A stretch of 57,172 bases of DNA from a virus. Positions 5,572 through 56,989 of the stretch are shown here, piece after piece. A program made the position numbers and the translations under genes. The stretch's first letter is position 1. The number at the start of each line of letters is the position of its first letter. The DNA is taken from positions 1 to 57,172 of the IMG/VR virus record IMGVR_UViG_3300033182_000558. The stretch is one strand, 5' to 3'. The notes beneath the pieces are model-generated. The model did no database searches, was not told the DNA's origin, and was given only the letters and a program-made list of their open reading frames with translations.

Positions 5572-5777
5572 TGGGTGTTATACCAGCAACGGGTACGGAA
5601 GTTAGTTTGGGTAAGATTGCTAGAGCCTATGGTGTGATAGGTTCATACCCCCCGTCTGCCGGTACGAATTTAGGTCTTAATGTTGACTTGGGGCCAGAAC
5701 TTTCTATACCCGCGTCTTCATCAACTGATATGAGTGAAGATTTTGGTGGTCAAACAACACCAAACACTTACCCATAA
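5571..5777 (+). CDS. Small tail-fibre-associated protein, 68 aa
   Basis: The ATG at 5571 shares its A with the fibre stop (TAATG), so the two are probably translationally coupled. The sequence opens IPATGTEVSLGKIARAYG and is rich in G, S, P and T, with no cysteine and no membrane segment. Short proteins that open with a [P]ATG-[IV]SLG-like pattern are common next to fibre genes in phages, where they are thought to be tail or adhesin accessories. That assignment is inference from pattern and position; no catalytic motif is visible. Confidence 0.6.
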   Translation: MGVIPATGTEVSLGKIARAYGVIGSYPPSAGTNLGLNVDLGPELSIPASSSTDMSEDFGGQTTPNTYP

Positions 5778-5779
5778 TT

Positions 5780-5807
5780 TTGACATTAAAAAAGGTTTTA
5801 GTATATT
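5780..5807 (+). promoter_or_regulatory. Sigma-70-like promoter ahead of the biosynthetic island
   Basis: TTGACA at 5780-5785 is followed, after a 16-bp spacer, by TATATT at 5802-5807, seven bases before the ATG at 5814. Read as a Bacteroidetes promoter it is TTTG (5779-5782), N19, TATATTGT, close to TTTG-N19-TAnnTTTG. It is the only convincing promoter seen before the gene array that runs to 38729. The first ten bases, TTGACATTAA, recur at 57081. Confidence 0.6.
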
Positions 5808-5813
5808 GTTGGT

Positions 5814-6230
5814 ATGAGTATAAGTTACAAACCATATCCATCGGAGTATGAACTACGATATGTGATGTTTCCCAATATTGGGTTTGACAAACAACAACTA
5901 TTGGAGTTTTTAGAATACCGAAAGAAAGCAAAAGGTGAGTTGTTAGAAACACTTGATAAGATACTATCGGACTACCCAAAGGATAAACTAGTTAAACTGT
6001 TAAACAACGACCCTGATGTAAGTAGAATATCTACTATTGAAAAGTATGCACGTAAAGCTGCAAAAGATATTTTGTTGACAGGTAAATACGAACCTGAAAC
6101 CTTTGAGGTAGTTACTAACCTACCATTATCAGATTACCAACTACTAATGAAACGGAGTAAAGAGATTATTACTCAAATACAATCATTGGGAGTACAGGAA
6201 GAGTCACCAAAAGGAATGCCGGGTGCGTAG
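5814..6230 (+). CDS. Hypothetical protein, 138 aa, first gene of the island
   Basis: I do not recognise this protein. It is predicted mostly helical, rich in K, E and L, with no signal peptide, transmembrane segment or cysteine cluster. It opens SISYKPYPSEYELRYVMFP and ends with a short flexible PKGMPGA tail. The start ATG lies directly behind the promoter at 5780-5807. The TAG stop abuts the ATG of the next gene (6231) with no spacer. Its place at the head of the array suggests a regulatory or adaptor role, but nothing in the sequence shows one. Confidence 0.7.
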   Translation: MSISYKPYPSEYELRYVMFPNIGFDKQQLLEFLEYRKKAKGELLETLDKILSDYPKDKLVKLLNNDPDVSRISTIEKYARKAAKDILLTGKYEPETFEVVTNLPLSDYQLLMKRSKEIITQIQSLGVQEESPKGMPGA

Positions 6231-6923
6231 ATGAAGAAAAGTATTTATGATACTACGTTGTGGGAATCTCAACCAAAGAAAGTAGCTATTTTAGTTCCTA
6301 CCAAAGATGTAGTATATTCTCACTTTTCATTCAGTCTCGCAAACATAATCAAAACATCAATACAATCAGGGTTAGATGTTGATGTGTTTTTTGACCAATC
6401 TACTATTCTTATTAACCAAAGAGAATACCTTGTCAATAAAGCCATAGAAAGTCATAGTGATTATATGTTTTGGATGGATAGTGATATGTATTTACCATCC
6501 ACTACAATCCTACGATTACTCGCACACAACGAAGACATTGTATGTGGAAACTATATGAAAAGAGCACCCCAATTTAAGACAGTCGCGTACACCGATACGA
6601 CTGATTGGGATAGTTGGGTTCCACTTGTAAAAGAAGATGAGTTGGTAGAAGTAGAAGGTGTTGGGTTGGGATGTTGTTTAATGAAAACAGATATATTTAA
6701 GAAACTCAAACGACCATTCTTTGAGTATAACTACCAACCCAAAACAAAAGATTGGGGTGGTGAGGATTTTATGTTACAGAAAAAATTGAGAGACCAAGGA
6801 TACAAAATCTATTTAGATATGGTGTTAAGTGAACAAGTAAAACACATTGGAACATTCGCGTTTGGAGATAAGATGAGTACCAATCAACGGAAAATAAAGG
6901 AAAGAAAAAATATATCTTTATGA
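6231..6923 (+). CDS. GT-A-type glycosyltransferase, 230 aa
   Basis: The N-terminal strand (KKVAILVPTKDVVYSHF) and the metal-site motif WMDSDM near residue 83 fit a GT-A nucleotide-sugar transferase. A downstream GGEDFMLQKKLRDQG resembles the acidic catalytic motif of GT2-like enzymes, and a late KHIGTF supplies a possible metal-binding His. There is no membrane anchor, so it should act in the cytoplasm. It starts immediately after the TAG of the previous gene. Donor and acceptor sugars cannot be read from the sequence. Confidence 0.8.
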   Translation: MKKSIYDTTLWESQPKKVAILVPTKDVVYSHFSFSLANIIKTSIQSGLDVDVFFDQSTILINQREYLVNKAIESHSDYMFWMDSDMYLPSTTILRLLAHNEDIVCGNYMKRAPQFKTVAYTDTTDWDSWVPLVKEDELVEVEGVGLGCCLMKTDIFKKLKRPFFEYNYQPKTKDWGGEDFMLQKKLRDQGYKIYLDMVLSEQVKHIGTFAFGDKMSTNQRKIKERKNISL

Positions 6924-7780
6924 CGGTGAATAAAAAAGAGATTGGAGTATCATTAAGTTGTTTTGAGGATTTGAGTTTATTTAATTACTATACCAAGAAT
7001 GCAAAAAAAGTAATTAGTAAATTCACAGACAGAGGATATGTAGTATATGTTCACACCAATAATCCTGATGAGTTTTCTGATTTAGATTGTTATGTAGTAC
7101 CATCTAAACTTAAAGTTATTTCTGTCAACGAAGTTGCAAAAATGACCGAGGACGAAAAGAACTTGATAAACTTTGATGACTATTGGACTTTTTACAGAAA
7201 GATTGAGGACATTGATTATGTTTTAGACAGACACGAGTATTGTTTATATATAGATTCAGACAACTTGCCAGTTGATGATACATTTAACAAGATAGAAAAA
7301 CATATATTAAATACTGAATGGGAAGGGGGTATATACTTTAACGGAGTTTGGGGGGATTTACAATCAATCAAAGACTCACCAAAAATAAATGGTTATTCTT
7401 ATCCAACGGTTGGATATTTAAAATGTCTTGAATATTTTTATTTCATAGACGAGACGGAAGGATTAAATCCATCACTTGATTTAAAACCATTTGATGAAAG
7501 TATTATGTTTATAAAAAAGTTTGATGAGTGGGGTTCATTCAAAGATTTAGTATTAGGAAAATATCAAACTATTGCTATAAACAATGATAAAAAAGATTTT
7601 TCTTGGATTGATGATGAATCATATAAACTATTTGGTAGAGCAGAAGGATTGGGTTGGACAATGGCGATAGAAGAACTTGATATGTTTAGTAAAGCTAAGT
7701 CTGATGATAGAATTTATGATATTAGAAAAACACTTGTGGTAAAAACTCATCCAACGACTTATGATAACACAACGGTTTAA
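6920..7780 (+). CDS. Putative GT-A glycosyltransferase-like protein, 286 aa
   Basis: Begins IGVSLSCFEDLSLFNYYT and has a DSD motif in CLYIDSDNLPVDD near residue 110, in the position where GT-A enzymes bind the metal and nucleotide. The rest is rich in F, Y, W and D and matches no family I can name. It overlaps the previous stop as ATGA. Neighbours on both sides are transferases, which supports the call. A non-catalytic GT-A relative is possible. Confidence 0.62.
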   Translation: MTVNKKEIGVSLSCFEDLSLFNYYTKNAKKVISKFTDRGYVVYVHTNNPDEFSDLDCYVVPSKLKVISVNEVAKMTEDEKNLINFDDYWTFYRKIEDIDYVLDRHEYCLYIDSDNLPVDDTFNKIEKHILNTEWEGGIYFNGVWGDLQSIKDSPKINGYSYPTVGYLKCLEYFYFIDETEGLNPSLDLKPFDESIMFIKKFDEWGSFKDLVLGKYQTIAINNDKKDFSWIDDESYKLFGRAEGLGWTMAIEELDMFSKAKSDDRIYDIRKTLVVKTHPTTYDNTTV

Positions 7781-8351
7781 TTCCAATAAAGATTATAGAG
7801 GAGATGTTGACACGAGTAGAAATTATATGTTTCTAGGGTTTATTGAACTATTGACTGTATTGTCTAATAAACTAGACAAGACTGATTATACAATGATTGA
7901 GATAGGGAGTTATATGGGTGAGTCCACGATGATGTTTGCGTCAACGGGAATATTTTCCACTATATACTCAATAGACCCCCTTGATGGTTATGAAGAATTT
8001 AATGAAATGCATAACTATCCTTGGGAGTTTGTAAGAGATGAGTTTACTAAAAACACTAAATATTTTGATAGTATAGTTCACTTACAAGATTTTAGTTACA
8101 ACGTGGTTGATAAGTTTGAAAATGATAGTATAGATTTTATTTATATAGATGGTAGCCATTCTGAAGAAAATGTTAGACGTGATTTAGAATTGTATTTACC
8201 AAAACTAAAAAAGAATGGAATTATTGCAGGACACGACTATCTTGAACTTGTGTGGCCTGACTTGGTAAAAGTTGTGACGGATGTTGTGGGTAAACCCGAT
8301 ATAGTATTTTCAGATACAAGTTGGATAAAATTTTATAATAATGAAGTATAA
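7761..8351 (+). CDS. Class I SAM-dependent methyltransferase (Methyltransf_24-like), 196 aa
   Basis: Motif I is present as MIEIGSYMGESTMMFA, the acidic strand-2 motif as IYSIDPLDGY, and the family's DFIYIDGSHSEENVRRDLE segment is clear, followed by LKKNGIIAGHDY. This layout is typical of the Methyltransf_24 group, often found in glycan clusters, where it may O-methylate sugars; the exact substrate is unknown. The start overlaps the upstream gene by 20 nt. Confidence 0.85.
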   Translation: MITQRFNSNKDYRGDVDTSRNYMFLGFIELLTVLSNKLDKTDYTMIEIGSYMGESTMMFASTGIFSTIYSIDPLDGYEEFNEMHNYPWEFVRDEFTKNTKYFDSIVHLQDFSYNVVDKFENDSIDFIYIDGSHSEENVRRDLELYLPKLKKNGIIAGHDYLELVWPDLVKVVTDVVGKPDIVFSDTSWIKFYNNEV

Positions 8352-29257: not shown

Positions 29258-30040
29258 ATGATAAATAAAAAAACTGAATGGGAAGAGAATAAAAAGAAGT
29301 ATGGATTTGGTAGAACCAAAGTAGATAATTTTTTAGACGAAGATACTGTATATAAGTTGTATGAAGAATGTATGAACGCACCCAAAGGAGGTTGGACTGT
29401 ATTTACACGGGCAGGTTCTCGTATGGAAGAGTTTAATGATTTAATCTCCCTACCAACCGCACACAAAGTAACCTATGATATAATGCATTCGGGTGAGTTC
29501 TTATATGAGTTAGAACAGATGACGGGGATTGTTGGATTACTACCCGACCCACATTTGGTTGGTGCAGGTTATTCTATTATTAGAAACGGAAAAACCCTTG
29601 GTTGTCATTATGATTTTAATTGGAATGACCGAATACGACTACACCGAAAACTAACATCACTACTTTACATCACACCCGATTGGAAAGATGAATGGGGAGG
29701 ACATATTCAGTATTATGATGATAATGTAGATGTAAACCCTAATGCTAATTTGATTGAGTCTGTATCTCCACGGTTTAACCGATTTGTAATCAATGAAAAT
29801 GTCAAACAAGGCCCATACCACCGAGTAAGTCAAGTGGACGCACCTGATAGTTACGCTAGATGTGCTATTAGATTTTTCTATTACATATCAACATCGGAGT
29901 ATGATAAAGACAATCCACCACACCGTAGTACGTACAAGACAAACGAATACTCACATCACAAACTTCACGAGGAAGAAAATTGGGATGGACACTTTGTTGG
30001 ACAAGGTGGTGAAGATTATGGATATACTCCAAAGAAATAA
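29258..30040 (+). CDS. 2OG-Fe(II) oxygenase, prolyl-4-hydroxylase-like, 260 aa
   Basis: The frame is open from 29180, but the ATG at 29258, one base after the upstream stop, is preferred. H-x-D in LGCHYDFNW, WGGHIQYYDDN in the jelly roll, distal His in QGPYHRVSQV and the 2OG-binding Arg in ARCAIRFFYY give a complete site of the 2OG-FeII_Oxy_3 type. The family hydroxylates proteins or small molecules; the substrate is unknown. TAATG overlap with the radical-SAM gene downstream. Confidence 0.84.
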   Translation: MINKKTEWEENKKKYGFGRTKVDNFLDEDTVYKLYEECMNAPKGGWTVFTRAGSRMEEFNDLISLPTAHKVTYDIMHSGEFLYELEQMTGIVGLLPDPHLVGAGYSIIRNGKTLGCHYDFNWNDRIRLHRKLTSLLYITPDWKDEWGGHIQYYDDNVDVNPNANLIESVSPRFNRFVINENVKQGPYHRVSQVDAPDSYARCAIRFFYYISTSEYDKDNPPHRSTYKTNEYSHHKLHEEENWDGHFVGQGGEDYGYTPKK

Positions 30041-31965
30041 TGAAACGTATTATATCATTTGTCCAACCCAACTTTAAACAAGGGCCGGGTGGTATTGCAT
30101 CATACTTACCATATAGTTGTGGTTTGTTATGGTCTCACGCCCTAACAAATGATATAGTAAAAGAAAACTACCAACTTCATAAATTTGTTTATAAACGAGA
30201 ACCATTGGATGAGTTGGCACAAGACTTATCCAATAGTACGGTAGTTGCGTTTTCTACATATGTTTGGAACCGAAACTATAACTTTACACTCGCTCAAAAG
30301 ATAAAAGACATAAACCCAAATGTCTTTACAGTATTTGGTGGGCCAGAACCACCAATAACCGACCCTAATATTTTTAATGATGTAATGCCATTTTGTGATG
30401 TGGTTGTAAAACAAGAGGGTGAGTTTGTTTTCACATCATTACTTGACCGTTTAGTATCAAGTGGTGATTATATGGATGTGAAGGGACTGTTGATAAATGT
30501 TGAGGGGTTACGAGTTGATACAGGTGATTCAGTACGTATTGAGACATTAGACGATGTACCATCACCGTACTTAACAGGTATTTTTGATGACATACTACCA
30601 TTAGAAAAAGAATGGAATGGTACATTAGAAACAAACCGAGGATGTCCTTACAAATGTACGTTCTGTGATTGGGGTTCTCTAACATACAGTAGAATGAAAA
30701 AATTTGGAATAGACCGTGTGTTTGATGAGATAGAATGGATGGGTAAAAACAAGATAGGTTATTTGGATGTCGCCGATTCCAACTTTGGTTTGTTTGTAGA
30801 ACGTGATAATCTCATAGTGGATAAGTTGATTGAGGTACAAAAGAAATATGGGTTTCCATACCGAACAGGTTGGAGTTGGGCTAAGAACCAAAAGTCAGAG
30901 GTTGTTGGAATAGCTAAAAAGTTAATTGAGAGTGGACACTTTAACAACGGACTAACCATATCATTACAGAGTCTTGATGAGAATACCCTAAAGACTATCA
31001 AACGACACAATATGGGTGTGAATAAAATAAACGAGATATTCTATGAGTGTAAGAAAGAGGGAGTGCCATTAAATGTTGAGTTGATAGTTGGGTTGCCGGG
31101 TGAAACATTAGAAACGTGGGAGGACACATTGTATGGTGTGTTTGAGGTCGGACAACACGATAGTATAGAAGTCTGGCAAGCACAAATATTAGAAAATGCT
31201 GAGATGAACTTATCTCAACGTAAAGAGTTTAGTATTAAAGGTATGAAAGTTGCTGACTACTTCCCCAATGGTGTAGATAATGAAGCACCTGAATATAGTG
31301 AGATAGTAACTGAAACATCAACAATGAGTTTAGATGAAATGGTTGAAGCGTATAAACTGTCGTGGTTTCTTATAACGTGGCACACAGGTGGATTCTCACA
31401 ATACATTTCACGATTTTTAAGACGATACAAAGATATACCATACAAAAAGTTTTATACCGATTTTAGAAAGTATTTACAGACAGATTCTTTTTGGAAACAA
31501 CAAGAAGATGAAATGACTACTGTAATAAAGAATTGGTATGTTGATGGGTTAGAGATACAAAAGAAAATAGGTGGTGTTGATATATCCGCGGCAACAAATC
31601 AATATAGAACATTATTTACAATACACAATAATTCTATGTATGATTATATTTATATGTTAGTGGATAAGTTCTTAAAAAGTTATGAGTTGTCGGATGACTT
31701 ATATAACGATTTGACACGACTGAATAAATGTGTAGTTACAAAACACAATGATATATCGGACTATACGGTTGGACTTAATAATACCATATTCACATACATA
31801 ACTGATACAGAATCACCACTACAAAATAACAAAGAAGTTATTGATGTGTATTATCCACACGACCCAATAAAAAGTAAAGATATAGATTGGTTTATGGAAA
31901 GTATATTCTACGCTAGACGAAGAAGTTTTGGTAAGAATTATCTAAGGAAAAGTTATGAAAATTGA
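30040..31965 (+). CDS. B12-binding-type radical SAM enzyme, 641 aa
   Basis: The N-terminal half has the Rossmann-like region of cobalamin-binding radical SAM proteins (VAFSTYVWNRNYNF, TVFGGPEPP, VVVKQEGEFVF). The radical SAM core has C202-x3-C206-x2-C209 (RGCPYKCTFCDWG), ISLQSLDENTLKTIKR and ELIVGLPGET. The DxHxxG cobalamin-anchoring motif is not evident, as in many members of the group. The C-terminal 200 residues are unassigned. Possible roles include methylation or ring chemistry on a sugar or peptide. Confidence 0.85.
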   Translation: MKRIISFVQPNFKQGPGGIASYLPYSCGLLWSHALTNDIVKENYQLHKFVYKREPLDELAQDLSNSTVVAFSTYVWNRNYNFTLAQKIKDINPNVFTVFGGPEPPITDPNIFNDVMPFCDVVVKQEGEFVFTSLLDRLVSSGDYMDVKGLLINVEGLRVDTGDSVRIETLDDVPSPYLTGIFDDILPLEKEWNGTLETNRGCPYKCTFCDWGSLTYSRMKKFGIDRVFDEIEWMGKNKIGYLDVADSNFGLFVERDNLIVDKLIEVQKKYGFPYRTGWSWAKNQKSEVVGIAKKLIESGHFNNGLTISLQSLDENTLKTIKRHNMGVNKINEIFYECKKEGVPLNVELIVGLPGETLETWEDTLYGVFEVGQHDSIEVWQAQILENAEMNLSQRKEFSIKGMKVADYFPNGVDNEAPEYSEIVTETSTMSLDEMVEAYKLSWFLITWHTGGFSQYISRFLRRYKDIPYKKFYTDFRKYLQTDSFWKQQEDEMTTVIKNWYVDGLEIQKKIGGVDISAATNQYRTLFTIHNNSMYDYIYMLVDKFLKSYELSDDLYNDLTRLNKCVVTKHNDISDYTVGLNNTIFTYITDTESPLQNNKEVIDVYYPHDPIKSKDIDWFMESIFYARRRSFGKNYLRKSYEN

Positions 31966-38774: not shown

Positions 38775-41351
38775 ATGATAGACCCAAAAGACTTAGGAAA
38801 CGAAATAGGTAAACAAATCATTGAAGCAATAGAAGAAACTTCAGACCAAAGTTCTTTTAATACAACATTAGATGAAATTGTAAAGGATTTTGTAAATGAA
38901 GCATCTTTAAGTAATGTAGGCCCTGATGATGGGCCGGGGTTTATGTATCCTAACTTTGATGCGTATAAAAGGGCTAGTGTTAGTGATAATAAAGGATTAC
39001 TAGACACGGGTTGGGAAATCGTTGACTATATGTTAGATGACGACCAAGAACAAGAATTAAACCCACCGATTTATCCAAATGGGCCGGTTGGTTCTGTTTC
39101 CTATTTCCCATCGGGTGATATTGGTGTAACAACACCTACAAACCAAGAGGACATCTACGGTGTTCAGGCATATAATAAGTGGAAAAAACACGTTATGAAT
39201 ATGTTAAAGTCTTTGGGTTGGGAGATAAAACAATCTAAACAACAAGAACGACTTACAAAAAAATTATCAGTTGATTCCGCAAAATCTATAAAAAACCAAC
39301 CTGTAAAAGATAGAACTAAGGGGGTACAAAAAGCAATTGACTTGGAAGAGTCATTGATGAACGAAATACCATATTCAGATTTAAAGAAAATAGACAACTA
39401 CGCAGACTCACAACTCAACCCCGTAGATGTGGTATTGACAGGTAGACACTTCTTTGACCGACTACAAGACCCAAGAAACAAAAAAGAAATATCACAAGCA
39501 GAACTTATTGGATTTTTCAAAAGACTATCAAAAAAGAAGAAAGACTTTTTAGAGTTTATAAAAAAATACGACCAAATAGTTGCAAAAGACAACCGAACTA
39601 AACTTAATATTCCATTTATGAAACAAGCGAACAAAGTAATCGCTAAAACCATAATGAGAAAAGATGACTTTAAAACATCTAATCCATCGTTTCATTTTGA
39701 ATCCATACACACACTTCCTGATTCACTTGGTATAGACAGAAGTAAGATGCCACAAATCAAGTCAACATTGATGGGTGACTACATACGATACATTGATGAT
39801 ATGGGTGTTAGAGTTAGAAAAAAGAAACTACCAATATCTACACTCAAAAATACACAAGGACATCTAAACAAAAAGAAAATTCAAGGACTATTACAAAAAG
39901 GTGGAAAGGAAAGTTTACAGAAACCGTTTATAATTTCATCTGACAATTACATACTTGACGGACACCATCGTGCAAACGCCCTATACAATATTGATGATAA
40001 ACATAGAGCGAATGTAATACAAATAAACTTACCTATAAAGAAACTCATACAAGTTACTCACGATTTCAGTAAAGTAAAATACAAAGACATAGATGAGAGT
40101 TATACTATGGAGGTGTATATTGAGGATACACCATACGCGGGTATACTTGAGAATATGTTTATTGGAAAAGAAAATACAAAAATTGAAGAAAGTATTGGAC
40201 TTTCTCTAAATGAATCCGTATATTCTAGTGAAGAAATGATTTTAGACACCGACAAAGACATTTTCTCTGAAATGGTAATTCAACAAACATTAGGTATTTT
40301 GTCAGAAAGTGGAGCATTGCCGGGAGTAACTCAAGTACCATCATCTGTCGCAGACAAGGTAGTGGGTGAGTTTATTAAAAAAGTATTACAACCACTAAAC
40401 ATCGTAAAGGTGGATAGTGTGGTTGGGTTAGGTAGTACTCGTGCTATTCTAAAGAAACTACCTACGGCTAAAAAGATGAGTGGTGATTTAGACTTACTTG
40501 CTATTGCTAAACAAGATAGTAGAAGTGCGGTGGGTAAGTTGGTTAGTTGGGCTCAAAAAAGAGATTATGATTATCAAGTCGCTTTTGGAAACATATTTAG
40601 TGTCGCATATCCATTTGGTAAAAGTAAATATCAAGTTGATTTGATGATTTCACAACCATCGGAAGAAGATGAGGTGTATAACTATATGAGAAAGTTTAAA
40701 TACTTTTCAGACGAAGACCCATCACAAAAAGGAGATTTTATACTCAAAGGAGCACACAGGTCTGAATTGGCTAAAACAGTTGTGAAGGCTATGGGTTTAA
40801 GTGCAGCTGAGAGTGGATTTAAACAATTCAAGTGGAATGACAAATACAATGATGTAAATACAATTGCAGACACACTTGAAAAGAAGGCTAGTAGATTTAG
40901 AGATAAGGACAAACAACAACAAACATTAGAACTTGTTGATTTATTACGAAACAAAATCAAAGACATTCGTAAACTAAAAAAGTATTTGGTAGACCAAGAC
41001 GATTTACTCAAAGACCGTTACCCTAGTTCATTGTTTAAAAGTGTTCCAAAAGCATTTGACCTTATGATTGATATGTTATTCAGTAAGGAAAACACCCCTG
41101 AAACTTGGGAGAAGGTATTAGACCGAAAGTTTAAAGTATCAAACGCTATTGAACGAATGAATAAGTTTGATGATGTTATGAATATAATGAAAGAACTTCT
41201 AAAAAAACGACTGATTACTCCTCGTGGTGTATTGGGTGTATTTACCGAAATGAAGAAAAACTTTGATACAGGTAAAGCGGCCGCCAAGTGGAATAGGTCA
41301 TTAGAAGAATACATAGAAAAACAATTCCCTTTCCTTAAAAACAGATGGTAA
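38775..41351 (+). CDS. ParB-like motif plus Pol-beta-type nucleotidyltransferase fusion, 858 aa
   Basis: Residues 1-150 are unassigned. A ParB/Srx-like element lies around residue 395 (ILDGHHRANAL, preceded by KPFIISSDNY). A nucleotidyltransferase signature follows: G553-S554, D571-L-D573 (SGDLDLLA) and third acid D622 (YQVDLMI), the metal triad of the Pol beta/MNT fold. Between them SLNE480-S481 matches the gp21 cleavage consensus, so the halves may be separated in the virion. The C-terminal 200 residues are helical. It could tag nucleic acid or protein with a nucleotide; its target is unknown. TAATG overlap with a ligase-like gene. Confidence 0.68.
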   Translation: MIDPKDLGNEIGKQIIEAIEETSDQSSFNTTLDEIVKDFVNEASLSNVGPDDGPGFMYPNFDAYKRASVSDNKGLLDTGWEIVDYMLDDDQEQELNPPIYPNGPVGSVSYFPSGDIGVTTPTNQEDIYGVQAYNKWKKHVMNMLKSLGWEIKQSKQQERLTKKLSVDSAKSIKNQPVKDRTKGVQKAIDLEESLMNEIPYSDLKKIDNYADSQLNPVDVVLTGRHFFDRLQDPRNKKEISQAELIGFFKRLSKKKKDFLEFIKKYDQIVAKDNRTKLNIPFMKQANKVIAKTIMRKDDFKTSNPSFHFESIHTLPDSLGIDRSKMPQIKSTLMGDYIRYIDDMGVRVRKKKLPISTLKNTQGHLNKKKIQGLLQKGGKESLQKPFIISSDNYILDGHHRANALYNIDDKHRANVIQINLPIKKLIQVTHDFSKVKYKDIDESYTMEVYIEDTPYAGILENMFIGKENTKIEESIGLSLNESVYSSEEMILDTDKDIFSEMVIQQTLGILSESGALPGVTQVPSSVADKVVGEFIKKVLQPLNIVKVDSVVGLGSTRAILKKLPTAKKMSGDLDLLAIAKQDSRSAVGKLVSWAQKRDYDYQVAFGNIFSVAYPFGKSKYQVDLMISQPSEEDEVYNYMRKFKYFSDEDPSQKGDFILKGAHRSELAKTVVKAMGLSAAESGFKQFKWNDKYNDVNTIADTLEKKASRFRDKDKQQQTLELVDLLRNKIKDIRKLKKYLVDQDDLLKDRYPSSLFKSVPKAFDLMIDMLFSKENTPETWEKVLDRKFKVSNAIERMNKFDDVMNIMKELLKKRLITPRGVLGVFTEMKKNFDTGKAAAKWNRSLEEYIEKQFPFLKNRW

Positions 41352-46870: not shown

Positions 46871-47422
46871 ATGATTATAAAAGAAAATATACAACTAACC
46901 GAAGGTTTAGAATATCACAAAGAAACTAATATCCCACTTGATGAAAACGTATATCGTTTTGGAAGTGCAAATTATTTTAAGTTATACAACGAAGCAAGAA
47001 AACTATACGAACAGGGAAAACTAAAACCCATTGATGAATTAGAAGAGTTTTTCTTAAAGAGTGATATTGGAAAGATTGGGATATACGAAGGTGAAAAAGT
47101 ATTGTTAGACTTCCCAATGCCAATGAAAGAAGCAGAATATCAAGGTAAAGATGTAGAACTAAACAAACCCAAACGTGGTGGTAGTAAAAAGTTCTATGTA
47201 TATGTTAAAGATGGGGATAAGGTAAAGAAAGTTTCATTTGGTGCTGCTGGTGGAGGGGGTAAATTATCTGTAAAATTGAAAGACCCAAAAGCTAGAAAAG
47301 CATTTAGTGACCGACACAACTGTCCTGACAAAACAGATAAGACATCTGCGGGGTATTGGTCGTGCGCCTTGCCGAGATTTGCAAAGCAACTTGGATTGAG
47401 TGGAGGAGGTAGATATTGGTAG
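46871..47422 (+). CDS. Conserved marine-phage-type head-region protein, 183 aa
   Basis: The C-terminus has the distinctive pattern RHNC-x2-K-x-DKT-x2-GYWSCALPRFAKQLGL, seen in proteins of marine T4-like phages near packaging genes. GGSKKFYVYVKDGDKVKKVSFG is a basic beta segment. The N-terminus, MIIKENIQLTE-G, fits a short capsid-targeting leader with gp21 cleavage after E11. The two Cys could bind zinc or form a disulphide. Function unknown. Confidence 0.7.
   Translation: MIIKENIQLTEGLEYHKETNIPLDENVYRFGSANYFKLYNEARKLYEQGKLKPIDELEEFFLKSDIGKIGIYEGEKVLLDFPMPMKEAEYQGKDVELNKPKRGGSKKFYVYVKDGDKVKKVSFGAAGGGGKLSVKLKDPKARKAFSDRHNCPDKTDKTSAGYWSCALPRFAKQLGLSGGGRYW
47402..47410 (+). promoter_or_regulatory. 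Strong Shine-Dalgarno (GGAGGAGGT) for the TTG start at 47416
   Basis: Purine-rich GGAGGAGGT ends 5 nt before the TTG. It is the strongest SD-like sequence at a start in the window and is what supports TTG initiation. It also encodes Gly-Gly-Gly of the upstream protein, so chance cannot be excluded. Confidence 0.5.
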
Positions 47423-49521: not shown

Positions 49522-50382
49522 ATGAAAAAAATTAAACACTCCAAATACAAAAACACGGGTTTTTTGTTTGAGATTTTAACTAGACAAGTAACCGTGGATA
49601 CTATGGAGGGTGTATCAGAGAGTAAAGCCCTATCTTTAATTAAAAAGTATTTCAATAAAGGTACTGAGTTATACAAAGAATACGCATTGTATGATGCGTT
49701 GATGAAGAAAAAGTTTGTGAGTGAAGTACGTGCTAATGACTTTATAGAAAAAGTAATCAAGTTACAAGAACGACTAAATATAAAGAAGTTAAAGACCGAA
49801 AAATACAATTTGGTAAAAGAAATTAAAAAACATTATAGTCTTGATGAAATGTTTTCCACCCAACTAAATGAATATAAAGTATTGGGGTCAATTTACATCT
49901 TGTTTGAAGGTGAAGGTTTAAATGAAAATACCATCACACACTACGATGATTGTAAAAACAATTTGATGGAGTTTATGATGAAAGAAGGAGATTACACATC
50001 AAGTACTCCTACTGTTTCAGAACGATATTTAAAAGAAGATAAAGAAGTACGTTTGTTGGCTTACAAACTAATGATTGAGAAGTTTAATAAAAAGTATTCA
50101 CCATTAGGTAAGAAACAAAAGTCTTTACTAAAAGAGTTTATAAACAATGTTTCTAATACTAATTCTTTGAGAACATACATCAACAAAGAAGTTGACGTAG
50201 TAAAAGAAACACTAGAAAATCAGATTGGTAAAACATCATCTGACATTACAAAAATTAAATTGAATGAAACTATCAAAATGATAGATAAGATTAAAAAAGG
50301 TAATGTAGTAAGAAACGAACAGTTCAAGGCTATGTTACATTTTTATGATTTAGTAGATGAATTGGAGAAGGTGAATGGATAA
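49522..50382 (+). CDS. Conserved helical protein between portal and protease genes, 286 aa
   Basis: The ATG at 49522 is preferred over the TTG at 49513. KIKHSKYKNTGFLFEILTRQVT at the N-terminus is a pattern I associate with marine T4-like phages in this position. Long helices rich in K, E, L and N, no cysteine motif. Two LNE tripeptides (STQLNEYK, GLNENT) are present but followed by Y or N. In T4 the prohead core genes 67 and 68 lie here; whether this is an equivalent is inference from position. Confidence 0.65.
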   Translation: MKKIKHSKYKNTGFLFEILTRQVTVDTMEGVSESKALSLIKKYFNKGTELYKEYALYDALMKKKFVSEVRANDFIEKVIKLQERLNIKKLKTEKYNLVKEIKKHYSLDEMFSTQLNEYKVLGSIYILFEGEGLNENTITHYDDCKNNLMEFMMKEGDYTSSTPTVSERYLKEDKEVRLLAYKLMIEKFNKKYSPLGKKQKSLLKEFINNVSNTNSLRTYINKEVDVVKETLENQIGKTSSDITKIKLNETIKMIDKIKKGNVVRNEQFKAMLHFYDLVDELEKVNG

Positions 50383-50794
50383 AGTTGTTCGTACAATTGT
50401 AAAAGAGGTATTGAGAAAAGTTCGTAGTATGAATGAGGCTACTACTACTGCTAATGTAGCGGGTTATAATACTCCTTTTGCGTTTTCGGGTGACGGTGAT
50501 GATGAAAAGAAAAAGAAACATCTAAAAAACCAAGGATACACTATTGTAGAGAACAGATGGTTAGACCTTAAACGAGATGTTAATAGAACTGCTCCAAGAA
50601 AAATTGCAGACGGTGTTTCTAATCTCAATAAACAATTACACGAAATTGAAAAATACTTAAATTGGTACGGTAAAATCAGAACAGAGGGTGGTGTTAGTAA
50701 AGACAAATACCACAAACGTACTAGTAAACAGTTGAAAGAGATGAAAACAAGAATAATGAGAATTAACGAAAAATTGAATAGACTATCAATATGA
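50375..50794 (+). CDS. Prohead-core-region protein with leader-like N-terminus, 139 aa
   Basis: Residues 1-21 (MDKVVRTIVKEVLRKVRSMNE) form a basic amphipathic helix ending at E21-A22, a good gp21 site. Then TTTANVAGYNTPFAFS, a pattern seen in marine T4-like head regions, and a helical, basic remainder. Likely a core or internal head protein. It overlaps the upstream gene by 8 nt and the next by ATGA. Confidence 0.65.
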   Translation: MDKVVRTIVKEVLRKVRSMNEATTTANVAGYNTPFAFSGDGDDEKKKKHLKNQGYTIVENRWLDLKRDVNRTAPRKIADGVSNLNKQLHEIEKYLNWYGKIRTEGGVSKDKYHKRTSKQLKEMKTRIMRINEKLNRLSI

Positions 50795-50940
50795 ACGAAA
50801 AACTTATTATAGAACGTATTGAAGAGTTCGTTAATGAAGAACTTGAACCATCTGATTTAAGAGAAATTAGAAAACTTATTAGACAAGAAATCGCAAACGT
50901 ATTGTTTGACTTATTTAAGAAAAGAGGTGTTTGGGTATGA
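50791..50940 (+). CDS. 49-aa helical protein before the protease gene
   Basis: ATG overlaps the previous TGA (ATGA), and its TGA at 50938-50940 overlaps the ATG at 50937 of gene 21, so it is coupled on both sides. Helical: IERIEEFVNEELEPSDLRE then IRKLIRQEIANVLFDLFKKRG. T4 has small core proteins (gp67, gp68) at this place; no sequence match is claimed. Confidence 0.65.
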   Translation: MNEKLIIERIEEFVNEELEPSDLREIRKLIRQEIANVLFDLFKKRGVWV

Positions 50941-51521
50941 ACAACTTATTGATAGAAACCAATTTATTTGAAGCACGATTACACGAAGACAACGGTAAGT
51001 TGTTAGTGAGTGGAGTGTTACAAAGAGCTGGTGCTAAAAACCAAAACGGTAGAGTGTATCCAAAACACATTTTAGAACGTGAGGTAAAACAATATGAACG
51101 ACTTATACAAGAAAGACGTGCGTTGGGTGAGTTAGACCACCCCGACAGTTCTGTTGTAAACTTACAGAATGTATCTCACAATGTTGTAGAGATTGGATGG
51201 AACGGTGATGATGTGGTAGGTAAAGTAGAAGTATTACCAACCCCATCAGGTAATATCCTAAAAGAACTTTTTAGAAGTGGTATTAGATTAGGTATTTCAT
51301 CTCGTGGTATGGGTTCGGTTCAAGAATCACCAAATGGGTTAGAGGTTCAAGAAGACTTTAACTTAATCGCGTTTGACTTTGTAAGTAATCCATCAACTCA
51401 CGGTGCGTTTTTATCACCAATATCAGAGGGAGTAAATCCAACGGTATGTGATATTTATTGTAAAACAGAAGATATTATATCAAAAATTATAATGGAATTA
51501 GGACAAGAATATGGCGTTTGA
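50937..51521 (+). CDS. 21: Prohead core protease (T4 gp21-like), 194 aa
   Basis: Serine protease that cleaves scaffold and capsid proteins. His68 in ALGELDHPD and Ser121/122 in LGISSRGMGS are the conserved catalytic sites, with LQRAGAKNQNGRVYPK and FDFVSNPSTHGAFL as family landmarks. The ATG at 50937 (ATGA) is preferred over the TTG at 50931. NLFE-A at 9-13 could be an autocleavage site. It should act on the VNE, MNE and LDE sites noted in neighbours. Confidence 0.95.
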   Translation: MNNLLIETNLFEARLHEDNGKLLVSGVLQRAGAKNQNGRVYPKHILEREVKQYERLIQERRALGELDHPDSSVVNLQNVSHNVVEIGWNGDDVVGKVEVLPTPSGNILKELFRSGIRLGISSRGMGSVQESPNGLEVQEDFNLIAFDFVSNPSTHGAFLSPISEGVNPTVCDIYCKTEDIISKIIMELGQEYGV

Positions 51522-51782: not shown

Positions 51783-53891
51783 GTGCCGGCACAATCACAA
51801 CAACAACAAAAACTTTTTGGACTAGCCCTATCAGTTAAAAGAGGTGATACTCCACGTAGTGAGGTTAGTAAAGATATAATAAAAATTGTAGATACTATGA
51901 GTGAAAAAGAAATTGAAGACTTCGCAGGAACCGAACACAAAGGACTACCTAAAAAAGTAGAACAGAAAATCCGTGAAATGGCTAGACAAACCATTAGAGA
52001 ACGAATGATGGGAGAGGCCAAATTCAACCGAGGTGATATGGTTAGGGTTATTGACAATCCTAAATATGTTATGGATAAAAAGAAATTCGCAGGTAAGTCA
52101 GGGTATGTTAAAAACATTATGGGTAGAGATGTAATGGTTAAGTTCCCAAATGGTAGAACTATTTTAGTTGACCCAAAAGATTTAGAGATGAACCCCAACG
52201 AATCAGTAAACGAAGCTAGAGATTTCTTGGTATATAATGTACAACCCAAAAAAGTTGAGGCATTTTTAAAGAAATATAAAAAAGTTGAACCATCTATGAA
52301 ACCATATTTGAAAGGTAACTTGATGAAGGCCTATGTCAAGTGGTTAGATTGGAAAAATAAGAATGAAGATAAACTTGGTGGTAGACCAGAAAAGGTAGAT
52401 TCACCTGCTTTTGGTTCAAAAACATTTTATAAATTTGATGGATTGCCGGGTTGGGCAAATGTATTTCAGTATTTGTATTATAAAATTAACTTGAAGGAAT
52501 CAGTAAACGAAGGAGATACACTTAAACAAGTAAAAAAGGGTAATAGTATAATTTTAAAGAAAGGAAATAAAATATACGCAACTATTTCTCAAAATCCAAA
52601 CAAAGAATTTAATTGGACTGTTTATTTTAAAAAAGGTGGAGCATTATCAGGATATAAAACTAAAGAAGATGCAATTGCTAGAGCACAGAAAATGAGTGAT
52701 AGTTTTAAAAGTGTGATTAATAAAATAAAAGGTGAATCAGTAAACGAAGGAATGGTAAAAATTGAAGTTGATTTATTCAAAAACTATAATCAACGAAGAC
52801 CTGATAAAACTGTTCCAATGAAAATAGATGATAAAACTACTCTTTCAAAGTTATTAAATCATACAACTTTCAAAGCTATGAAAGATAAATATGATTATAT
52901 AGAACTTCATTATGGTGATAAGTTTTTAGGTAGTGCTATGGCTGGAACTGATAATTGGGAATTTAAAAAAGGTAGAGGACTACAAGATACAAGTTTTAGA
53001 GAATCAGTAAACGAAGGTAAAAAGGCATTTAAAGTAAATCCACAAATAGGTAAAGCTAAATACAGTATTAGTTTCCACGATGGAAAATCAAAAAACAAAG
53101 ATGGAAGTGATTTTTGGGGAATTGAAACCTTTAAAAATAAAGTAGATTTAGAAAAAGGAATTAAAAACTATAAGAGTAAAGGATTTGTCCAAGAATCAGT
53201 AAACGAAGACTTTGGAACTATTGCTCTTGGTGTTGCAGGTGGATTACTTTTACTTAAAGTTCTAAAGTTTGTAGCTAAAAAAGTAATAGGAGGTGTTGCT
53301 CGTAATGCAACTTTAAGTAGAGAAGTATTGCATACAACCATAGAATCAATGACAAAAGAACTTATTAAGCAAAAAACTAAGAAGCCGAATGGTAAGCTTA
53401 AGGATGTAAGTTTAGAGGATATATTTAGGTTGAAAGTGGTACTTAAAAGATTAGTTGATAGGGGTGACATTAAAACGATGAACGATATTCAGAAAATTAT
53501 TAAAAAAGCATCAAACGGGAAGATGGAATCAGTAAACGAAGCAAATGGTGAGTTTGTTGTTTATGTTGAAAAAGATAATGGTAGAAAGAAACTTCTTCAT
53601 ACCAAGAAATCTCAACGAGCAGCCAATATGTTTATGTCTAAAAATATGGACAAAATCCTAAACAAATCAGGTATAAGAAGTATTGGTAGTATGAGTAAAG
53701 ACCAATGGGAAAAGAAAGAAGCACAGTTTGCAGAAAATATCAAGAAAAAAGGTATGAAAACTGTAACTAAAAAAGAATGGGACAGAACTCATAAAGATTT
53801 TAAAGGTATGATAAAAGGTCAACCTTATATGATGTGGTTTGACAAACAAACACAATCAACAGTATACGGCCCTGTTCATATCAAAGACTAA
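51783..53891 (+). CDS. Modular polyprotein with six ESVNE linkers (predicted gp21 substrate), 702 aa
   Basis: GTG start at 51783, 10 nt after AGGA. Residues 1-60 resemble DUF3008 (QQQQKLFGLAL, EDFAGTEHKGLPKKV); 80-139 form a small KOW-like fold (FNRGDMVRVIDNP, KSGYVKNIMGRDVMVKF). ESVNE recurs at 140, 239, 318, 407, 471 and 582, dividing the protein into seven modules of about 60-140 residues, mostly small, basic and unrelated. Module 6 carries a hydrophobic helix (TIALGVAGGLLLLKVLKFV). V-N-E then A, G or D fits the T4 gp21 consensus, as does MMGE-A near residue 77. I infer internal head proteins made as one chain. Confidence 0.75.
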   Translation: MPAQSQQQQKLFGLALSVKRGDTPRSEVSKDIIKIVDTMSEKEIEDFAGTEHKGLPKKVEQKIREMARQTIRERMMGEAKFNRGDMVRVIDNPKYVMDKKKFAGKSGYVKNIMGRDVMVKFPNGRTILVDPKDLEMNPNESVNEARDFLVYNVQPKKVEAFLKKYKKVEPSMKPYLKGNLMKAYVKWLDWKNKNEDKLGGRPEKVDSPAFGSKTFYKFDGLPGWANVFQYLYYKINLKESVNEGDTLKQVKKGNSIILKKGNKIYATISQNPNKEFNWTVYFKKGGALSGYKTKEDAIARAQKMSDSFKSVINKIKGESVNEGMVKIEVDLFKNYNQRRPDKTVPMKIDDKTTLSKLLNHTTFKAMKDKYDYIELHYGDKFLGSAMAGTDNWEFKKGRGLQDTSFRESVNEGKKAFKVNPQIGKAKYSISFHDGKSKNKDGSDFWGIETFKNKVDLEKGIKNYKSKGFVQESVNEDFGTIALGVAGGLLLLKVLKFVAKKVIGGVARNATLSREVLHTTIESMTKELIKQKTKKPNGKLKDVSLEDIFRLKVVLKRLVDRGDIKTMNDIQKIIKKASNGKMESVNEANGEFVVYVEKDNGRKKLLHTKKSQRAANMFMSKNMDKILNKSGIRSIGSMSKDQWEKKEAQFAENIKKKGMKTVTKKEWDRTHKDFKGMIKGQPYMMWFDKQTQSTVYGPVHIKD
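52200..53541 (+). repeat. Six exact dispersed copies of the 16-mer GAATCAGTAAACGAAG
   Basis: Copies start at 52200, 52497, 52734, 53001, 53193 and 53526, spaced 297, 237, 267, 192 and 333 bases, all multiples of three and all in the same frame. All are identical at synonymous positions, while the intervening modules share no clear sequence. Such exactness suggests recombination sites between cassettes or recent spread of the linker. Confidence 0.92.
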
Positions 53892-54243: not shown

Positions 54244-55362
54244 ATGGCACAAGAAAAAAAATCACTTGTTGATGAAGTACTAGATGACGCTCTACAAGTT
54301 CGTGATACTGCTCTTGCCAACGCCAAACTTGCATTACAAGAGGCTTTTGAACCTCGTATCAAGTCTATGGTTTCTCGTCACTTACAAAGTGAAGCTGAAT
54401 TAGAAGAAGCTGAACTAGAAGAAGCTGAACTAGAAGAAGTTGAACTAGAAGAACGTGGTGATGAAGAGTTGGAAGAACGTGGTGAAGAAGAAGTTGAAGA
54501 AGGTGACGAAATCGGACTACCTGACCCAACTAACGCTGACGACGCTTCTCTTGAAGAAGAAGAACACGAAGACGAAGTTGAAGAAGAACTAGAACCATCT
54601 GACATTGATGACGAAAATGAAGAACCATCTGACGTGGCTTCTGACGATTCAGGTATTGGAGAGGGTGACCACTCTGACGAAGAAATGGAAGAAGAAATGG
54701 AAGAAGATGATGACCTTGACCTAGAGTCTGTAATCGCTGAATTAGAAGCTGAACTTTCTGAAGAAGAAGATGAAGACGAAATGGGTGAGGAAGAAGATGA
54801 AATAGATATGGACGATATGTCTATGGACTCTGAAGAAGAAGAGGAAGATGATGATGAAATTATTGACCTTGATGAACTACTTACTGCACTTACTGAAGAT
54901 GACGAAGTTGAAGAAGTCGTTGAAGAAGAAGTAGAAGAAGTAGTTGAAGAACAAAGCGAACTAGAACAGGAAAACCAAAGACTAGCTTCGGAACTTAAAG
55001 AACATCGTGAGGCAGTAGAAATCCTCCGCACTAAGTTAAATGAAGTCAACCTGTTAAACGCTAAACTCCTATATACAACTAAGTTATTCAGAAAATTCAA
55101 TCTTTCAAATGACCAAAAAATGAAAGTAGTTGAGTCTTTTGACCGTACTTCATCAGTACGTGAAACTAAGTTAGTATTTAGTACATTAGCAGAATCTTTG
55201 AGTATGAACAACTCTTCTAAAACTAAAAAGAAAGTTGCTTCTATTACTGAAGGATTCGCATCAAAACCCACGACATCTACTAAACCTAAACAACAAGAAA
55301 TCATTTCTGAAGGAAATGAAGTTGCTGATAGATTTAGAAGACTAGTATCTTATAACAAATAA
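54244..55362 (+). CDS. 22: Prohead scaffold protein (T4 gp22-like), 372 aa
   Basis: Extremely acidic core protein: residues 45-245 are mostly E and D, including a fourfold AELEE-type repeat, flanked by helical ends. The C-terminal third has a coiled coil (ELEQENQRLASELKEHREAV), the scaffold-typical KLLYTTKLFRKFNLS, and SITEGFASKP with SITE-G as a probable gp21 cut. Scaffold is degraded during maturation. It lies directly before the capsid gene as in T4. Confidence 0.9.
   Translation: MAQEKKSLVDEVLDDALQVRDTALANAKLALQEAFEPRIKSMVSRHLQSEAELEEAELEEAELEEVELEERGDEELEERGEEEVEEGDEIGLPDPTNADDASLEEEEHEDEVEEELEPSDIDDENEEPSDVASDDSGIGEGDHSDEEMEEEMEEDDDLDLESVIAELEAELSEEEDEDEMGEEEDEIDMDDMSMDSEEEEEDDDEIIDLDELLTALTEDDEVEEVVEEEVEEVVEEQSELEQENQRLASELKEHREAVEILRTKLNEVNLLNAKLLYTTKLFRKFNLSNDQKMKVVESFDRTSSVRETKLVFSTLAESLSMNNSSKTKKKVASITEGFASKPTTSTKPKQQEIISEGNEVADRFRRLVSYNK
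54391..54450 (+). repeat. Four tandem 15-bp units in the scaffold gene
   Basis: Units of GAAGCTGAACTAGAA at 54391, 54406, 54421 and 54436, with one or two base changes in the outer units (T for C; GTT for GCT), encode EAELE x3 and EVELE. A likely site of slipped-strand length variation. Confidence 0.9.
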
Positions 55363-55384: not shown

Positions 55385-56989
55385 ATGGACAACATCCAAT
55401 CTTTAGTTGAAAGTGCCGGTGAACGACATATCCAAAGCCAAAAGGCGAAAGAGCTTGTTTCTAAGTGGGAACATACAGGACTTCTTGAAGGATTAAAATC
55501 TGAACAACAAGCTTCTGCTATGGCTCAAGTACTTGAGAACCAAGCAAAACAACTTTTGGACGAGGCTACTCGTACAGGTACTACTGCAAACTCTGAACAA
55601 TGGGCTGGTGTAGCACTACCCCTAGTTCGTAGAGTATTCGGCGAAATCGCCGCACAGAACTTTGTTTCTGTACAACCTATGAACCTTCCATCAGGTCTAG
55701 TATTTTACTTAGACTACAAGTATGGTACTGTACAAAATGCAAAACCTGCATTTAACAATACTTCTCTTTATGGTGGTCAAGGTGGAACCGACACTCCAAC
55801 CAACGCAGCTACAAACGGTCTGTATGGTGCTGGACGTTTCGGATATTCTATCAATGACGTAGTAACTAGTGGAGTGGCTCCAACTTCTTACGCTAGTGCT
55901 TCTCAAGCTGACGTTAACTTTGACACTACCCTTTCTGCTTCTGTTGCAGCCGGTGAGATTACCAAAGTAACTATCGCGTCTTCTGAATTCACAAACCCTG
56001 ACTTAGAAGGTGTACGTGCTTTCCAAGCTAGTGGTTCTGCTGTTGTATCTAACCTAAACGCATTCAACACCACAAGTGGTGCTAACATCGTATTGTTCGT
56101 ATCTGCTGCCGCTGGTGCTTCTTCTTCTCTTGCAGGAGACTTTGAAGTTGCTTACCACAAACAACCAACTGATAGTTCACGTGGTGACTTTGAAGATGGT
56201 GCTGTTGGAGCTTTCGGTTCTGATATTGACATTCCTGAAATCAACCTTGATGTACAATCAAAAGCCATCGTTGCTAAGACTCGTAAGTTGAAAGCACAAT
56301 GGACTCCTGAATTGGCGCAAGACTTGAATGCATATCACGCTATTGACGCTGAAGCAGAATTGACTTCTGTTCTTTCTGACTACATCTCAATGGAAGTTGA
56401 TTTAGAAATCCTTGATATGTTGATTCAGAATGCCGTAACTACTGACTATTGGTCAGCTCGTGTAGGATATGAGTACGACTCTAACTCAGGTGCTTTTGCC
56501 ATCGGTGGTTCTAGTGGTGCAGGTCTTGCATATCAGAAAAACACTTGGTTCCAAACTTTAGGAACTAAAATCAATAAAGTATCTAACAAAATTCACCAAT
56601 TGACTATGCGTGGTGGTGCAAACTTCTTGGTTGCTTCTCCTGACGTATGTACAATTCTTGAATCTATCCCAGCGTTCTCTGTATCTGCTGGTAAAGATGC
56701 ACTTCAGTTTGCTGCAGGTGTAACTCAAGTAGGTACTCTTGGAAGTCGTTACACGGTTTACAAAAACCCATATATGACTGAAAACACAATCTTGGTAGGT
56801 TACAAGGGAGACAACTTCCTTGAGGCTGGTGCCGTTTACGCTCCATACGTACCATTGATTATGACTCCTACCGTATATGACCCAACCAACTTCACTCCGA
56901 GACGTGGTATTATGACCCGTTACGCTAAAGAAATGACGCGTTCTGAATTCTACGGTGTGATTTACGTTGAAGGTATGGAGACTCTATAA
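55385..56989 (+). CDS. 23: Major capsid protein (T4 gp23-like), 534 aa
   Basis: ATG preceded by AAGGAT. The N-terminal 60 residues are a helical delta domain ending QLLDE-A (E60), a match to the gp21 consensus, so the mature chain begins at A61 (ATRTGTTANSEQWAGVALPL). Then VRRVFGEIAAQNFVSVQPM, GLVFYLDYKYG, KSKAIVAKTRKLKAQWTPELAQDL, ATSPD-type VASPDVC, and the C-terminal NFTPRRGIMTRYAKEM, all typical of T4-like capsid proteins. Synonymous codons are more C-rich (GCT, CGT, AAC) than in the island, as expected for a highly expressed gene. Confidence 0.96.
   Translation: MDNIQSLVESAGERHIQSQKAKELVSKWEHTGLLEGLKSEQQASAMAQVLENQAKQLLDEATRTGTTANSEQWAGVALPLVRRVFGEIAAQNFVSVQPMNLPSGLVFYLDYKYGTVQNAKPAFNNTSLYGGQGGTDTPTNAATNGLYGAGRFGYSINDVVTSGVAPTSYASASQADVNFDTTLSASVAAGEITKVTIASSEFTNPDLEGVRAFQASGSAVVSNLNAFNTTSGANIVLFVSAAAGASSSLAGDFEVAYHKQPTDSSRGDFEDGAVGAFGSDIDIPEINLDVQSKAIVAKTRKLKAQWTPELAQDLNAYHAIDAEAELTSVLSDYISMEVDLEILDMLIQNAVTTDYWSARVGYEYDSNSGAFAIGGSSGAGLAYQKNTWFQTLGTKINKVSNKIHQLTMRGGANFLVASPDVCTILESIPAFSVSAGKDALQFAAGVTQVGTLGSRYTVYKNPYMTENTILVGYKGDNFLEAGAVYAPYVPLIMTPTVYDPTNFTPRRGIMTRYAKEMTRSEFYGVIYVEGMETL

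Follow-up and report, generated by a model that had tools for sequence, protein, structure and literature searches.

Why should a single reading frame among the head genes of a T4-like phage carry the same five amino acids six times? The question is raised by an ORF of 702 codons (51783-53891, plus strand) in a 57-kb virus record from an environmental sample, the whole of which (57,172 nucleotides) was analysed and is called the window here. An earlier note had suggested that the prohead protease may cut its product into seven head-internal proteins. Our analysis makes a closely related answer probable: the ORF would encode a head-internal polyprotein which gp21 cuts into packaged, likely injected modules, and these modules would be exchanged at the linkers. 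In this proposal cleavage, packaging, injection and the function of the modules are inferred.

The window contains a T4-like head cluster with terminase, portal, an S77 prohead protease (gp21), the 702-aa ORF, bS21, an acidic scaffold-like protein and a gp23-type capsid protein. The ORF lies, as the earlier note had it, between gene 21 and bS21. Upstream is gp21, the proposed cutter (50931-51521, plus strand; Peptidase_S77, PF03420 1e-27; phrog_207 9e-54), in which TNLFE↓AR at residue 14 is itself a candidate site (arrows mark proposed cuts). Downstream, all on the plus strand, follow phage bS21 (53907-54110; phrog_21469 3e-9), the scaffold-like protein (54244-55362; pI 4.05, several hydrophobic-x-E sites) and the major capsid protein gp23 (55385-56989; phrog_138). 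The scaffold-like protein had no profile match and owes its name to composition and position. The maturation site QLLDE↓A of the window's gp23 at residue 60 (55553-55564) was used for calibration. As a host marker bS21 gave a single distant match to a MAG, and no host was assigned. The head-cluster protein encoded at 50375-50794 (plus strand) has a leader ending in RSMNE↓A and is apparently another gp21 substrate; in three related loci (L011, L040 and L254) cassettes sit within its homologue. Elsewhere in the window, an 858-aa ORF (38775-41351; phrog_2859) has DFVNE↓AS at residue 42 and several more such sites, and is possibly a further protease substrate. A radical SAM protein with a weak B12-binding match is encoded at 30040-31965, within the phage genome.

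The 702-aa ORF starts with GTG. The start is supported by the DUF3008 N-terminus MPAxSxxQQ, which is also present in the closest relative, L126. The N-terminal sequence MPAQSQQQQKLFGLALS contains no T4-style leader resembling MKTYQEFIAE, and no candidate site precedes the one at residue 78. All six ESVNE are encoded by exact, in-frame copies of the 15-mer GAATCAGTAAACGAA at 52200, 52497, 52734, 53001, 53193 and 53526. The residues following them (P1') are, in order, A, G, G, G, D and A. A scan of the window which allowed up to 3 mismatches to the 15-mer found 12 matches, whereas 100 shuffled sequences averaged 3.5 and the highest count among them was 8; outside the six linkers no match had fewer than three mismatches. 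A chance repeat as the origin of the linkers was ruled out because the 100 shuffles never reached the observed number of near-matches.

The linkers delimit seven modules, all on the plus strand, and a further hydrophobic-x-E↓A site, RMMGE↓AK at residue 78 (MMSE↓AN at the equivalent place in L126), probably splits the first of them. Thus, the products may number eight and not the seven of the earlier note. Module 1a (51783-52016), ending in RMMGE↓A, is indeed the DUF3008 domain which the earlier note had suspected (PF11450 2e-14; 53.9 bits against a gathering score of 24; residues 3-59 only), and relatives were found in 48 loci. Module 1b (52017-52214, with linker 1 at 52200-52214) is a small beta-rich domain with 82% identity in L126; its predicted structure, with a pLDDT mostly between 65 and 85, weakly resembles SH3-like barrels. 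Modules 2 (52215-52511, linker 2 at 52497-52511) and 3 (52512-52748, linker 3 at 52734-52748) had no relatives among the loci collected, and neither had module 6 (53208-53540, linker 6 at 53526-53540), which follows the linker with D at P1' and contains the hydrophobic helix announced in the earlier note. Module 4 (52749-53015, linker 4 at 53001-53015) has 87% identity in L285 and is the last module of L126. Relatives of module 5 (53016-53207, linker 5 at 53193-53207) are carried by 94 ORFs. The C-terminal module 7 (53541-53888) is 77% identical in L250, where additional modules come after it, and 74% identical in L285.

Are these modules proteins in their own right? Compared with each other the seven modules of the window had no detectable similarity, and all are basic (pI 8.8-10.1, 64-144 residues; median pI of modules 9.4), which agrees with the dissimilar, mostly basic pieces described before. 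Modules having relatives are under purifying selection with dN/dS values of 0.08-0.33 (about 0.3 for module 4 and about 0.1 for module 5). Module 5 was modelled alone because MAFFT misaligned the full-length alignment in which all modules are mixed. It was predicted as a compact, independently folding domain (pLDDT 86.8) with a loose, low-confidence ESVNE tail. The full-length model, which was built on few sequences, was weak overall (mean pLDDT 57), and all six linkers fell in low-confidence stretches. The dN/dS values together with the confident compact fold of module 5 indicate that the modules are real proteins. Their functions were not revealed: searches of the modules with Pfam, PHROGs, PADLOC and for folds yielded DUF3008 and weak matches only, with no PADLOC match at all and, in foldseek, nothing below E=0.001 and no confident fold match. 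A relative of module 5 was sought in cellular genomes and not found.

The window is not a single case. The exact 15-mer was found in at least 119 contigs of IMG/VR, many with multiple copies per ORF, and two linker-independent scans, with gp21 and with the interior of module 5 as queries, added further loci. After removal of near-duplicates at least 122 ORFs had two or more linkers (maximum eight), nearly all within the head-gene cluster. Related phages with the same linker and other modules, for which the earlier note had asked, thus exist, and its fused, multiply cleaved architecture is supported as far as sequence can decide, albeit as a large family. At least 215 modules are bounded by linkers on both sides. 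They fall into at least 111 families, 36 of which have two or more members, and module order differs between phages. The module 5 family alone has at least 35 linker-bounded members with 12 different families as right-hand neighbours. Among the array loci recruited by module 5, 67 of 70 have a head gene within 5 kb. Three array locations recur: before terminase, between the homologue of ORF 50375-50794 and gp21 (or inside that homologue), and in the gap from gp21 to the scaffold gene. In the stretches examined only 9 of 80 loci recruited by gp21 had an array ORF; accordingly, arrays belong to a part of this phage group. In L126, with a gp21 95% identical to that of the window, modules 1a and 1b are kept, module 4 is last, the other modules are different, and the linkers read ESVVNE, ESVVSE and ESVNE. 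Its polyprotein (L126:6851-8500) ends with FRESVK-stop within a would-be linker, which gives the impression of an array cut short at a seam. The eight-linker array of L218 (558-3072) contains the short GRAFINAAKKAKAEGKTEFEFNGKTYPVTIK module twice; hence, duplication within arrays also occurs. A phrog_7595 module lies behind PMPMKE↓A in the window itself, between terminase and portal (46871-47422); it is C-terminal in a polyprotein of L100 and was found in cultured Methylophilales, Pelagibacter and C48C1 phages. In the nearest cultured phages by capsid protein, Microcystis phage Mel-JY01 and Flavobacterium phage immuto, the head-cluster ORFs examined contained no ESVNE array.

Next we asked which features of the junctions are kept. 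Upstream of module 5, 54 distinct contexts were available. Position P1 was E in 54 of 54 and P3 was hydrophobic (V, I, F, L or M) in 53 of 54, including contexts without the other letters of ESVNE such as KVTFEE, VKGIDE, GKKLRE, ISEMTE and DGNMRE. The phrog_7595 module was preceded by E in nine of nine contexts, with a hydrophobic P3. Over all 249 module starts lacking a strict linker, hydrophobic-x-E stood immediately before the start in 62%, compared with 0.4-0.6% when the starts were shifted by 10, 20 or 30 residues as a control. No E was at P1 in 31% of these contexts, some of which are other genes or alignment slips. A homologue which keeps the neighbouring modules and loses the linker Glu would have spoken against the earlier note; none was found, and hydrophobic-x-E is usually kept. 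In 452 linkers P1' was A or G in 290 (64%, background 14%), followed in frequency by D and S; 36% had neither A nor G. The capsid proteins of the array loci have LLDE↓A (42), LVTE↓A (17), LVSE↓A (9), and also LVKE↓A and IIDE↓A. This site, of the form [LI][LVI]xE↓A/S, we take to be the place corresponding to the T4 gp23 cut. The junctions of the arrays match in class the gp23 site of the phage itself, i.e. hydrophobic-x-E often followed by a small residue. The proteases of T4, phiKZ and SPN3US all cleave after Glu (PMC9026906, PMC5694885). In the T4 IPIII leader, residues 8 and 10 (P3 and P1) control processing, and the phiKZ and 201phi2-1 proteases have few requirements beyond the Glu motif (PMC9026906).

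A gp21 substrate need not stay in the head. The pieces might assist head assembly and then exit the prohead like the fragments of T4 gp22, gp67 and gp68, i.e. the ORF might encode a core or scaffold polyprotein. The shared gene cluster and junction rule would suit such a role, and T4 core proteins are likewise cleaved to many small pieces, which presumably leave (PMC9958956). However, the basic modules bear no relation to one another, are conserved and have been swapped between phages, and at least module 5 is folded in the model. Further, a separate gene for an acidic scaffold-like protein (pI 4.05) exists, and a DUF3008 relative in cyanophage S-SCSM1 carries a virion-protein annotation. We consider a core or scaffold role unlikely, yet it cannot be dismissed.

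The linker DNA was examined in 135 ESVNE from ORFs which had not been recruited by the 15-mer. Only 11 of 192 possible spellings were used, and the commonest accounted for 56%, whereas 4.6% was expected from codon usage. Ser was never encoded by AGY and Val was GTA in 133 of 135. Identical linker pairs made up 59% within one ORF compared with 30% between ORFs. Thus, the identity at synonymous sites exceeds what is needed at the protein level. Because spellings are few and one is dominant, the linkers seem to have been copied from a single ancestral sequence. Of the DNA blocks with at least 85% identity, 51% had their 5' end and 36% their 3' end within a linker, compared with 5-6% for random positions. 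The pairs in this count are not independent, and a shared linker alone pushes a block to its outer edge. In L256 and L275 a cassette of 207 nt between linkers is 100% identical, and the flanks are unrelated (25-33%). Taken together, the block ends in linkers and the L256/L275 cassette leave an exchange of modules at linkers well supported by sequence comparison.

Could the linkers equally well be mere flexible spacers, multiplied and homogenised by duplication and recombination, in an uncut multidomain virion or core protein? Their apparently single ancestry, their nearly identical DNA and their place in low-confidence stretches of the model are all compatible with a spacer. Yet a spacer needs no Glu at a fixed place, whereas junctions without ESVNE still mostly end in hydrophobic-x-E, A and G are enriched at P1' and the gp23 site has the same form. 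We give an uncut protein little credence. Least of all can we see in the 15-mer a DNA element for recombination, packaging or regulation which is translated by chance with the protein sequence as a by-product: synonymous conservation beyond codon usage and the coincidence of breakpoints with the 15-mer would agree with this, but a pure DNA role is unlikely because all but two of the 249 copies in head loci lie within ORFs and are read in frame as ESVNE (247 copies), the window elsewhere has no copy with two or fewer mismatches, and the protein-level junction rule holds without the 15-mer. By frame and strand of the copies a non-coding DNA element was ruled out.

How does a polyprotein processed by the head protease compare with known systems? 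T4 IPI, IPII, IPIII and Alt are, like the proposed products of the arrays, small head proteins which an S77 protease cuts after hydrophobic-x-E, and the sets vary between relatives. IPI-III are packaged, trimmed by gp21 and injected (PMC9026906), and each inhibits a different GmrSD restriction enzyme (PMC12373910). The T4 proteins differ in that they are encoded by separate genes, each with its own leader of 10-19 residues and one mature protein per gene. The modules of the arrays are joined in one chain, each seemingly released by a cut on either side, and exchange takes place where the cuts would fall; the window ORF has six linkers. This ORF therefore fails two defining features of the T4 internal proteins, an own leader and a single protein per gene. 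Polyvalent proteins (Iyer et al., 2017, PMC5512222) resemble the arrays by having several unrelated domains per chain. These proteins of phages and conjugative elements are thought to accompany DNA into the host and were likened by the authors to the polyproteins of RNA viruses (PMC5512222). However, many of their domains are enzymatic and processing is proposed to be by embedded zincin-like or assemblin-like peptidases (PMC5512222), whereas the arrays have repeated junctions and are proposed to be cut by the head protease. Pfam searches of the window ORF and ten other arrays found neither an embedded processing peptidase nor known domains of polyvalent proteins (LPD, MPTase, ARTs, ParB-like and others); a sub-threshold LPD5 match in L250 (E=0.009) was the only hint. 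Prohead-protease substrates of phiKZ and SPN3US are likewise cleaved behind the Glu of S/A-x-E or A-x-E, and a single propeptide is cut at several places (PMC9026906, PMC5694885, PMC10052503); yet the extra cuts fragment propeptides, and no succession of unrelated folded modules is liberated. Some of the same modules occur in proteins of the phages Melnitz and C48C1 (Kyanoviridae; QZI94307.1, QZI94305.1, WJE87968.1, WJE87969.1), in several cases behind hydrophobic-x-E (IEIDE↓M, PEMDE↓A, LTE↓A). Those proteins, annotated as hypothetical, differ by having fewer modules and no repeated ESVNE. The cultured Methylophilales phage Melnitz (L286, MZ577095.1) encodes two unannotated multi-module proteins with hydrophobic-x-E junctions (6553-7941 and 4336-6288); in one of them MKKFSEIIE↓A is followed by an opening nucleotidyltransferase-like domain. 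A literature search, with subscription papers mostly outside its scope, found no description of tailed-phage head cargo as an RNA-virus-style polyprotein cut by the head protease. If the proposal holds, the arrays would be a new variation on the theme of head-delivered protein sets, with release from one polyprotein by a protease acting in trans.

As we envisage it, one chain would be made alongside the head proteins and co-assemble into the prohead core; judged from pI, the basic chain would join an acidic core. Once the chain is enclosed in the prohead and the gp21-type S77 protease is activated, the latter would cut it in trans behind the Glu at every hydrophobic-x-E junction, i.e. at the six ESVNE and probably also at RMMGE↓A. 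This may release about seven or eight proteins, all small, basic and folded on their own, which would stay with the packaged DNA and likely enter the host as the T4 internal proteins do. Between phages, arrays would evolve by exchange of whole modules with breakpoints in the shared linker DNA, so that one sequence would serve as protease site and as in-frame recombination seam. The array, the conservation of its linkers, shuffling at these linkers, the junction rule, the location in the head cluster and the presence of the protease can all be read from the sequences. Direct evidence from virions is limited to the free-standing DUF3008 protein SSCSM1_93, annotated as a virion protein, of cyanophage S-SCSM1, the virion proteome of which was measured by mass spectrometry (PMC9602691); virion or cleavage data for array phages do not exist. 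Delivery of effectors with the DNA is, then, plausible but unproven. Melnitz offers a culturable test system.

If the proposal is right, the modules constitute a ready list of head-delivered proteins of uncultured aquatic phages, with the limits of each marked by its cut sites. The analogy to T4 IPI-III would make them candidate anti-defence factors, and many 'hypothetical' ORFs near gene 21 in environmental T4-like phages would be accounted for. Exchange at linkers would also make it genetically simple to arrive at new sets of cargo. Whether T4-like aquatic phages possess a combinatorial cargo system, in which more than 100 small head-delivered proteins are exchanged as in-frame cassettes between polyproteins through a 15-bp protease site and seam, we regard as evenly balanced. 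Should this be true, a module swap would suffice for a phage to change its host-directed set, and no new promoter, start or targeting leader would be needed.
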